Below are positions 51,080-55,057 of a DNA stretch of 64,000 bases, one piece after another. The number at the start of each line of letters is the position of its first letter. The first letter of the stretch is position 1. Below the pieces are notes generated by a model, which was not told the DNA's origin, did no database searches, and saw nothing but the letters and a program-made list of their open reading frames with translations. Made by a program: the position numbers and the translations under genes. Origin of the DNA: Syntrophomonas sp. (lineage in GTDB: Bacteria; Bacillota; Syntrophomonadia; Syntrophomonadales; Syntrophomonadaceae); the NCBI GenBank assembly GCA_016841245.1, contig JAENZN010000006.1, positions 1 through 64,000 on the forward strand, written 5' to 3'.

Positions 51080-53119
51080 ATGCATACACTTATAGCCAGC
51101 CAGGCAGGTTTTTGTGCTGGTGTTAAGAGGGCTTTTAAAATAGCAGAAGAGACTGCATATGATCAGGGAAAATGGTACACTTTAGGTCCACTGGTGCATA
51201 ACGAATCAGTAGTCTCCTATTTCAGGCAAAGGGGAATAAATCCGGTTGAAAATCTAAATGAAATCCCAGAATCAGCCGGGATTATTATCAGGTCCCATGG
51301 AGTTGCGCCGGATATAATTCGTGAAGCGGAAAAAAGAGGATTGAATATAAAGGATGCAACTTGTCCGCGGGTTAGTCGGGTACATGAAATTGTACAGACT
51401 CTGGTAGCAGAAGGATATGATATAGTAATTTTTGGTGACCCCGAGCACCCGGAAGTTAAGGGTATATTAGGTTGGTGCGGCGGACAGGCCTCAGTTATTT
51501 CGAATGTAAATGAAATAATAAACCTGAAGATTTCAGATCGGCTGGGAATAGTATCCCAAACTACCAGAGATGAAAAAGAGTTTTTTCAGATAGTAAACGG
51601 TATGGCAGGTTTAGCCCATGAAATAAAGGTTTTTAATACTATATGTTCTGCTACCCAGAGAAGGCAGAATTCAGCACTAGAATTGTGCAGCAAAGTAGAT
51701 TTAATGATTGTGGTAGGGGGGGAATACAGTTCCAATACTACTACTCTTTTTAAAGAGTGTTTAAATACCGGAGTAAGAACTTACCTGGTTCAGGATGCAG
51801 CAGATATTAGCCCCCAATGGTTTAAGGGGGTATCAACAGCAGGTATTACTGCTGGTGCTTCAACTCCGGATTGGATTATTAAGGAGGTATTGTGTAGGAT
51901 GACAGAGTATGAGGAAAAGGATATTCAGAGCCAGGCTCAGGAGCAGGAGGTTAAGGCTCAAGAGCAGGAAAGTAACACCAGTGAACAGTCCAGTGAAGAA
52001 GCCAATAATGAATTATTTGCCCGCATGGAGGCAGAAATGGCTGAATATGAAACCCCTGGCAGAGGGGATGTTATAAAGGGGACCATTATACAGGTACTTG
52101 ATGATGAAGTAATGGTAGATGTAGGTGGGAAATCAGAGGGAATTGTACCCCTGAGAGAGCTTTCTTTAGCCCCAGTTGAGTCTGCTAAAGATTTTGTGCA
52201 GGTTGGCGATGAAATTGAAGTAATGATCTTAAAATGGGATGATGATGGTACTATCTTGCTTTCCAAGAAACGGGTGGATTCCAAGAAAGTGCTGGATGAA
52301 TTAGAAGACGTCTTTGAAAAGGGTGAAACTATTCAAGGCACGGTTAAGGACATAGTAAAAGGTGGGTTAATTGTAGACGTAGGTGTAGTAGGATTCCTGC
52401 CTGCATCTCATGTTGAAGATGGTTATGTCAAAAACCTGGATGAGTATAAAGACAAAACCTTCGATTTTAAGATTATTGAGTTTAATCGTAATAAAAGGCG
52501 TGGATCACAGGTTGTTTTATCCCGTCGGGAATTGGTTCTGGCCGAAAAACAACAGCAAAAACAGGAATTTTGGAGCAATATCGAAGAAGGGCAGACCCGA
52601 CCCGGCAAGGTGAAACGGATAGTTGATTACGGTGCCTTTATTGATCTGGGGGGATATGAAGGATTACTGCATGTATCTGAACTGGATCATAAGCGGGTTG
52701 AACATCCAGCCGATGTATTGCAGGAAGGCGAAGAACTCGAAGTTTATGTACTGGGTGTTGACCGAGAAAAAGAGCGGGTATCTTTAAGCCGCAAAAAATT
52801 GTTAAAGAGTCCCTGGGAGATAGCAGTGGAAACCTATTCGGAGGGTGATATCGTAGATGGAACCATAGTCAGGATCGCTCCCTTCGGTGCCTTTGTTGAG
52901 CTGGACCCGGGGGTAGACGGCCTGGTTCATATTTCCCAACTGGCTGATTACCGGGTTGAAAAACCTGAGGACGTGGTGTCAGTAAACCAGCAGGTCAAAG
53001 TTAAGATATTGAGCGTTGATGCCAATGAAAAGAGAATCGGTTTATCGATTCGAGAAGCGCAAAGGGATGAGGAACAGCAAGAAGTAGAAGAATATATGGA
53101 ACAACAGGAACAGGAATAA
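51080..53119 (+). CDS. ispH-rpsA: IspH reductase fused to ribosomal protein S1
   Basis: A 679-residue fusion. Residues 1-275 are 4-hydroxy-3-methylbut-2-enyl diphosphate reductase (IspH), an Fe-S enzyme with cysteines in GFCAGVKRA, DATCPRVSRVHE and NTICSATQRRQ, making IPP and DMAPP. A Glu/Gln-rich linker of about 45 residues follows, then four S1 RNA-binding domains (about 330-660) and an acidic tail. The fusion is known in Clostridia. Within the junction, AAGGAGGT (51881-51888) precedes an in-frame ATG (51899), so free S1 could also be produced. Isoprenoid role fits the downstream fni gene. Confidence 0.93.
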   Translation: MHTLIASQAGFCAGVKRAFKIAEETAYDQGKWYTLGPLVHNESVVSYFRQRGINPVENLNEIPESAGIIIRSHGVAPDIIREAEKRGLNIKDATCPRVSRVHEIVQTLVAEGYDIVIFGDPEHPEVKGILGWCGGQASVISNVNEIINLKISDRLGIVSQTTRDEKEFFQIVNGMAGLAHEIKVFNTICSATQRRQNSALELCSKVDLMIVVGGEYSSNTTTLFKECLNTGVRTYLVQDAADISPQWFKGVSTAGITAGASTPDWIIKEVLCRMTEYEEKDIQSQAQEQEVKAQEQESNTSEQSSEEANNELFARMEAEMAEYETPGRGDVIKGTIIQVLDDEVMVDVGGKSEGIVPLRELSLAPVESAKDFVQVGDEIEVMILKWDDDGTILLSKKRVDSKKVLDELEDVFEKGETIQGTVKDIVKGGLIVDVGVVGFLPASHVEDGYVKNLDEYKDKTFDFKIIEFNRNKRRGSQVVLSRRELVLAEKQQQKQEFWSNIEEGQTRPGKVKRIVDYGAFIDLGGYEGLLHVSELDHKRVEHPADVLQEGEELEVYVLGVDREKERVSLSRKKLLKSPWEIAVETYSEGDIVDGTIVRIAPFGAFVELDPGVDGLVHISQLADYRVEKPEDVVSVNQQVKVKILSVDANEKRIGLSIREAQRDEEQQEVEEYMEQQEQE

Positions 53120-53418: not shown

Positions 53419-54021
53419 ATGCAAGCCAGTGGAGTTATACTTTCGGGGGGAAGAAGTTCACGCATGACCTTCAATAAAGCTTTTGCAGATATCTGTGGCA
53501 GATCAGTACTGGAAATAATCATAAAAAAGTTTGAAAAGTATTTTGACGAGTTGATGATAATAACCAATGAACCTGAACTATACCATGGATTGGTGTCTGC
53601 CGTGTATATCGACGTTTATCCCCGTATGGGACCCATGGCCGGGATACATTCAGGTTTATATCATTCCAGGTATGAGACTATATTCTTGTTGGGTTGTGAC
53701 ATGCCATTTATTAATATGGAATTAGCAGCCTATATGCTGGAGAATTGCGCTGGATATGATTGTGTGGTGCCGGTAATCGATAATAAGCCGCAGCCATTAT
53801 TTGCCGTATATAATACCAGTTGCCTGTCGGCTTTAGTCGATTGCCTGGAAAATAATAAATTGAAATTGACCATGTTTGTAGAAAGCCTTAACACCAGATA
53901 TATGTATGAAAACGAAATGGAATATTTCGGTGACATTTCAACCATGTTTTTTAATGTTAATGATTTGGCCGCCTTAAAAAGAGCCAGAGAAATGTCAGGA
54001 GGTTTGCAAGATAAGAGGTAA
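53419..54021 (+). CDS. mobA: Molybdenum cofactor guanylyltransferase
   Basis: Attaches GMP to molybdopterin to make the dinucleotide cofactor used by formate dehydrogenases and related enzymes. The 200-residue protein has GVILSGGRSSRMTFNKAF (nucleotide-binding, about 5-22), DVYPRMGPMAGIHSGL, LLGCDMPFIN and PVIDNKPQPLFAVY. The frame opens at 53278, but the terminator before 53378 and AGGAGGGGG before ATG 53419 fix the start. Its end overlaps the start region of fni by 11 bases. Confidence 0.9.
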   Translation: MQASGVILSGGRSSRMTFNKAFADICGRSVLEIIIKKFEKYFDELMIITNEPELYHGLVSAVYIDVYPRMGPMAGIHSGLYHSRYETIFLLGCDMPFINMELAAYMLENCAGYDCVVPVIDNKPQPLFAVYNTSCLSALVDCLENNKLKLTMFVESLNTRYMYENEMEYFGDISTMFFNVNDLAALKRAREMSGGLQDKR

Positions 54022-55057
54022 ACGCAAGAATGAGCATATTCTTCTGGCTCAGCAAATACCAGACGGACCATGTTCAAGTGGTCTTGATAATATATATCTT
54101 ATTAACAATTCGGTACCCGAATTGGATATGGAGGATATTAATCTGGGAGTTGATTTCCTGGGTAAAAGATTAAGACTGCCTATGGTAATCAATGCCATTA
54201 CCGGAGGGACTGATCAGGCAGGCCGCATTAACCAGATATTGTCATCAATAGCTGCCCGGTATGAAATAGCCATGGCGGTAGGGTCCCAGGCTATAGCTAT
54301 AGAAGATCCGGGTTTGAGATATACTTTTTCTATTGTCAGGGAAGTTAATCCAGATGGGCTAATATTTGCGAATATCTCGGCTGGAAGTGGAATATCAGAA
54401 GCACTGGAAGCAATCGATATGATAAATGCTGATGCCCTGCAGATTCATTTTAATATTCCCCAGGAACTGGCTATGCCCGAAGGAGAACGATCCTTTCAAG
54501 GCATCCTGCCCCGGATACAGAAAATAACCGAGAATTGTCCGGTGCCGGTTATTGCCAAAGAAGTGGGATTTGGTTTCTCCCGGGAAAGTATCTGCAGGCT
54601 TTATGAAGCTGGGGTTAGTATATATGATATTGGCGGCAAAGGAGGCACCAATTTCGTATCCATTGAAGACCAGCGCAGTGGAAAGTTTATCGGTGAATTG
54701 GATCAATGGGGTATTCCAACCGCTGTGAGCCTGATAGAAGCTGTTAGTATGGATATGCCCATCCAGATTATAGCATCGGGAGGGATAAGAACTGCTCCTG
54801 ATGCTGCCAAAGCTTATGCTCTGGGAGCAGATATGGTAGGGATGGCCGCTCCGTTTCTAAGAACATTATTGAATCACGGGTCAGAGGAATTGGAAAGAAA
54901 AATAGAGGAAATGATTTACCGATTAAAAGCCGTTTTTTTAATGACCGGTTCTCGTAACCTGGAACAGATTAAAAAGCAGCCCTTGATAATACTGAATGAA
55001 ACCGCCCAATGGATTGAAGCTCGGGGCATTAATAAGCTCAGGTGGTCGAAGAGATAA
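54011..55057 (+). CDS. fni: Isopentenyl-diphosphate isomerase, type 2, with apparent AUA start
   Basis: An FMN-dependent IPP-DMAPP isomerase of about 348 residues. Core motifs: NAITGGTDQAGRIN, AVGSQAIAI, AKEVGFGFSRE, DIGGKGGTNF and IIASGGIRTAPDAAKAYALGAD. The first standard start codon in frame is TTG 54122, which would delete the conserved RKNEHILLA region needed in this family. That region is encoded upstream in the same frame. No ATG, GTG or TTG exists before it; ATA 54011 lies seven bases after a perfect AGGAGGT and gives normal family length. Start at AUA is inferred. Confidence 0.82.
   Translation: MRGKRKNEHILLAQQIPDGPCSSGLDNIYLINNSVPELDMEDINLGVDFLGKRLRLPMVINAITGGTDQAGRINQILSSIAARYEIAMAVGSQAIAIEDPGLRYTFSIVREVNPDGLIFANISAGSGISEALEAIDMINADALQIHFNIPQELAMPEGERSFQGILPRIQKITENCPVPVIAKEVGFGFSRESICRLYEAGVSIYDIGGKGGTNFVSIEDQRSGKFIGELDQWGIPTAVSLIEAVSMDMPIQIIASGGIRTAPDAAKAYALGADMVGMAAPFLRTLLNHGSEELERKIEEMIYRLKAVFLMTGSRNLEQIKKQPLIILNETAQWIEARGINKLRWSKR

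Follow-up and report, generated by a model that had tools for sequence, protein, structure and literature searches.

The type 2 isopentenyl-diphosphate delta-isomerase gene (fni) of this Syntrophomonas genome very probably begins at a genuine, selectively retained AUA codon at position 54011 of the 64,000-nucleotide stretch analyzed here (the window), a start that would be read through the 30S/fMet-tRNA route, would throttle fni expression, and would be sensitive to IF3. The parts of this reading borne directly by sequence comparison are the start site, its Shine-Dalgarno (SD) element, the order-wide non-AUG codon, and the lack of alternatives. What appears to be new is that a weak fni start extends across the order Syntrophomonadales, is never ATG, and recurs in other lineages. 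The open-access literature that we searched yielded no report of a non-canonical fni start, which does not prove that none exists. Throughout, AUH denotes AUA, AUU, or AUC, and canonical starts are ATG, GTG, and TTG.

The fni frame and its initiation site

By direct reading, the fni frame is bounded by the stops TAA 53975-53977 and TAA 55055-55057. After the first stop it continues AAA GAG CCA GAG AAA TGT CAG GAG GTT TGC AAG and then, from 54011, ATA AGA GGT AAA CGC AAG AAT GAG CAT. The layout described in an earlier reading of the letters alone (the sequence-only reading) is borne out in each respect: no ATG, GTG, or TTG stands in this frame between the stop at 53975-53977 and TTG 54122, a perfect AGGAGGT at 53997-54003 lies seven bases ahead of ATA 54011, and the upstream mobA-like gene runs 11 bases into fni, up to its stop TAA 54019-54021. 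The features concerned are as follows.

51080..53119, + strand: ispH-rpsA fusion (HMBPP reductase plus S1 domains), two genes upstream of fni; NF000907, E 5.1e-249
53419..54021, + strand: mobA-like NTP transferase gene, directly upstream of fni; start ATG 53419, stop TAA 54019-54021; PF12804, E 2.9e-32
53997..54003, + strand: putative Shine-Dalgarno element AGGAGGT of fni, 7 nt before the AUA and within the mobA reading frame
54011..54013, + strand: proposed AUA initiation codon of fni; ATA, ATT, or ATC in 56/57 loci of the order, no canonical in-frame start upstream
54011..55057, + strand: fni, type 2 isopentenyl-diphosphate delta-isomerase, 348 residues, stop TAA 55055-55057; matches to TIGR02151 and 1p0k
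54122..54124, + strand: TTG, first canonical in-frame codon, rejected as the start because the constrained RKxxH N-terminus would be lost

Two of the neighboring genes have features of their own. The mobA-like product scores 88.9 bits against the MobA equivalog model TIGR02665, under the cut-off of 151.85. The gene at 51080-53119 joins IspH (LytB) to ribosomal protein S1 domains, a type of fusion that has its own NCBI family (NF000907).

Counted from ATA, the fni product has 348 residues, in line with the normal length (about 348) that had been claimed for it, and its matches identify it as a full-length type 2 IPP isomerase. The frame matches TIGR02151, the model of this family, with an E value of 9.5e-112 over profile positions 1-336 of 338, and its score of 373.3 bits against a cut-off of 281.3 places it in the family at full length. 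With ATA as codon 1, the match begins at product residue 4. Likewise, B. subtilis IDI-2 (1p0k) matches Fni with an E value of 2.5e-83, with IDI-2 residue 3 aligned with Fni residue 2. The pattern of substitution indicates coding constraint on this N-terminus: within codons 2-37, differences at the first, second, and third codon positions number 2/0/10 between loci L001 and L004, and 9/0/19 between L001 and L006.

Codon 1 across Syntrophomonadales and beyond

Comparison of fni was made across 57 loci from three families of Syntrophomonadales, and the class-level search covered the same 63 genomes as the order-level search. Many of these loci are related and the counts are thus not independent, with codon 1 being ATA in 32, ATT in 13, ATC in 11, GTG in one, and ATG in none. 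The sequence-only reading had proposed an alignment of this junction in related genomes as a check on its claim that AUA is the real fni start, and the absence of ATG at codon 1 from all 57 loci, together with AUH at 56 of them and AUA throughout the five genus genomes, favors that claim. The four other genomes of the genus, whose Fni proteins are 72-93% identical to this one, read ATAAGAGG at the start site, as does the genome studied here. Across the order, no canonical start separates the in-frame stop from codon 1 in 50/57 loci. The best SD-like hexamer matches AGGAGG at five or more of six positions in 54/57 and ends 7-9 nt upstream of codon 1 in 55/57, with an AGGAGG-to-codon-1 spacing of 8 nt in 44/57 loci and 7 nt in 9/57. 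As in conserved AUH-start genes, fni combines a constrained N-terminus that lacks an upstream canonical start with an AUH codon at a fixed distance from the SD. Start use at the AUH codon of fni is strongly supported by these comparisons, and its recurrence throughout the order rules out a chance arrangement.

A few loci depart from the common arrangement. Three (L030, L059, and L061) have an ATG that precedes AUH by one or two codons and a fourth (L029) has GTG as codon 1, so that the weak codon is not strictly indispensable. Conversely, in-frame stops two to three codons upstream of AUH leave no room for an upstream start in L054 (TGA ACC ATT), L067 (TAA ACC ATC), and L014 (TAG CAA ATT ATA). 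The codon preceding AUH differs freely among relatives, and RNA folding from -40 to +40 of seven fni loci gave no evident shared structure.

Since all three AUH codons encode Ile, the lack of ATG alone does not distinguish a start from an internal isoleucine. However, in outgroup genes that start upstream, the residue at the codon-1 place is S, K, N, G, Q, R, T, or E, and this free variation means that Ile as such is not conserved. Some outgroup fni genes start at exactly this place with ATG, GTG, or TTG. We rejected a conserved internal Ile on the basis of the varied outgroup residues and the near in-frame stops. An altered genetic code in which AUA specifies Met was also rejected, since AUC and AUU serve in the same role in fni loci.

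Is the weakness of the codon itself under selection? On a tree of the Fni protein built without codon 1, at least 14 state changes are counted for this codon, between ATA, ATT, and ATC and in one case to GTG, and never to ATG. Among conserved four-fold columns of fni, only 1/46 lacks a third-position G (mean G fraction 0.22). This avoidance of ATG is suggestive of selection for a weak start rather than decisive.

The main competitor to a selectively retained start is that AUA does initiate fni but that its weakness is of no regulatory significance, an inherited accident tolerated thanks to the strong SD and to ribosomes delivered by mobA. Strong SD elements at nearly all fni loci, a mobA stop that overlaps or nearly touches the fni start in most of them, and further AUH-type starts elsewhere in the genome, which suggest a general tolerance, are all compatible with such an accident. 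The 14 or more changes at codon 1, none of them to ATG though a single substitution turns any AUH codon into ATG, speak against it, as do similar fni starts in other orders, and we consider it possible but rather unlikely.

Outside the order, 8/82 fni loci lack a canonical start, and all eight carry a purine-rich SD-like run before ATA, ATT, or ATC. They comprise L089, L104, and L162 (family f40), L093, L136, L144, and L146 (order of G431), and L094 (G267). For example, L136 reads TAA CGG GAG GCG TTA ATA ATC TCC AGG and L094 reads TGA ACT ATA TCC AGG. At three further outside-order loci (L073, L130, and L134) the AUH codon has the better SD spacing. This distribution suggests that weak fni starts were adopted repeatedly in several lineages.

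Other readings of the mobA-fni junction

Initiation at a different codon is very improbable. TTG 54122 is the sole canonical start that a gene caller can list, but a protein starting there would be missing the RKxxH N-terminus, which falls within the constrained codons 2-37 and aligns with solved IDI-2 enzymes. Another non-standard codon, for example the AAG before ATA, fares no better, since the codon at that place is variable among relatives.

Slightly more improbable still is a prfB-like MobA-Fni fusion, in which ribosomes would shift frame at AGG TAA close to an SD-like element; the sequence-only reading had itself named such a product as evidence against an AUA start. In the window, the 11-base overlap and an AGGAGGT 12 bases ahead of the last mobA sense codon, AGG, speak for such a mechanism. 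Across relatives, however, the position of the mobA stop with respect to AUH is -7, +8, +1, -2, +31, +34, +28, -4, -5, or +2, which covers two distinct out-of-frame registers, and in L014 the stop is in frame. A conserved relative frame of the two genes, as in prfB-like cases, is therefore not seen, the mobA stop falling in all three frames across species. Furthermore, the in-frame stop of L014 parts the two genes, and L054 and L067 have in-frame stops two codons upstream of AUH. The variable stop frames and the in-frame stops thus contradict the fusion.

A sequencing or assembly error (ATG read as ATA), whose correction would restore ATG or GTG and which had likewise been named in advance as evidence against the AUA start, is negligibly probable and is ruled out by the relatives: the source is a draft genome of 56 contigs and no support for an error was found, but all five genus genomes read ATAAGAGG and the codon is AUH at 56/57 loci of the order.

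Parallels, proposed mechanism, and wider meaning

A genuine AUA start would place fni in a known class of genes with non-canonical starts that includes infC, ccpN, cvfC1, pncA, and sigR. The closest parallel in layout is infC, the established AUH gene, which also has a conserved AUH behind a strong SD; within the order, infC shows the same arrangement (GGAGGT, then ATC, ATT, or ATA at SD distance) in 30/30 loci. The two genes differ in that IF3 reads the start of its own gene in infC, in a closed feedback loop, whereas the metabolic gene fni would be a target outside any such loop. Three Staphylococcus aureus genes, ccpN (AUA), cvfC1 (AUU), and citZ (AUA), resemble fni in having AUH starts with a strong extended SD in a Firmicute (PMC13009471). 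In contrast to fni, they are other genes in another order, and their starts were mapped by ribosome profiling, that of fni by comparison only. In one (poor) medium, these AUA and AUU starts gave about 10% of the AUG level (PMC13009471). Streptomyces sigR keeps a non-standard start genus-wide, with a AGGAGGTG SD, and its output is held low by IF3, which represses its GTC start (PMC5472188); unlike fni, its start is GTC rather than AUH and its IF3 effect was measured, where that on fni is inferred. Borrelia burgdorferi pncA (bbe22) is, like fni, a metabolic enzyme gene with an AUH start, in its case AUU, and it differs from fni in that its start was confirmed by genetics and a crystal structure (PMC13398362). 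High IF3 also lowers re-initiation without an SD in E. coli (PMC2268962).

The IspH product is the last enzyme of the MEP pathway and yields both IPP and DMAPP, so that Fni is not strictly needed. Low Fni output is plausible because IspH already supplies both compounds. We propose that fni is translated from AUA 54011 via the ordinary 30S/fMet-tRNA route. The near-perfect SD would hold the ribosome over AUA, which pairs with the initiator anticodon at two positions only, and would thereby offset the weakness of this codon. An AUH start would in turn set a low basal level of Fni and expose initiation to IF3, which rejects such complexes, and Fni output would be expected to fall at high IF3 and rise at low IF3, parallel to infC. 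Selection would keep the start weak, probably as little Fni is needed when IspH gives IPP and DMAPP. Ribosomes finishing mobA at the overlapping stop may be an additional local source for fni; mobA-fni coupling is not the conserved element, since the position of the mobA stop varies. Throttling of fni by its codon is what published measurements on other AUH genes would predict (PMC13009471), and it is from the type of codon that we infer IF3 control.

Candidate AUH starts are not confined to fni and infC. We scanned 576 kb of the 3.9 Mb genome, containing 478 gene-like ORFs, for an SD before a codon with no canonical start upstream, and obtained six AUH hits. No other codon gave more than two, and some of those hits were shadows of AUH sites. 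Besides fni, three genes in the scan have AUH starts that appear credible from their sequences. A lysine 2,3-aminomutase-like gene (L198:8626-9888, - strand; G000 contig C34:112626-113888) has CGGAGG, 9 nt, and then ATC, which stands right behind an in-frame TGA and is followed by 52 codons without a canonical start. Its copy in G003 (L237) likewise has ATC, and those in G034 and G044 (L238, L239) have ATT at SD distance. The gene of a 193-residue genus-specific protein (L213:5345-5923, + strand; G000 contig C10:25345-25923) has AGGAGG, 8 nt, and ATA, and ATA with an SD recurs in 5/5 genus genomes (L266-L270). Finally, a MATE-type transporter gene (L231:8672-10096, + strand; G000 contig C7:8672-10096) has a G-rich SD before ATC in 5/5 genus genomes (L271-L275); candidate alternative ATG or TTG codons lie in frame 10-11 codons later and lack an SD.

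One tentative possibility, which we hold to be doubtful, is that the AUH genes of Syntrophomonadales (fni, infC, and the lysine 2,3-aminomutase-like, MATE-type, and 193-residue protein genes) are under common IF3-level control, with fni as the most widely conserved metabolic target.

To our knowledge, very few bacterial genes depend on AUA, AUU, or AUC starts. An enzyme gene with AUH at 56/57 loci of an order, and never ATG, is a broad case that makes the retention of weak starts testable in a metabolic gene. Gene callers restricted to ATG, GTG, and TTG cannot place an AUH start, and Fni would accordingly be expected to be truncated or missing in annotations order-wide. In B. burgdorferi, ignoring the AUU start of pncA led to a truncated database entry for the enzyme (PMC13398362). 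The finding is thus of interest both for genome annotation and for the study of translation initiation, where an fni reporter may allow IF3 action to be followed beyond the infC feedback loop.
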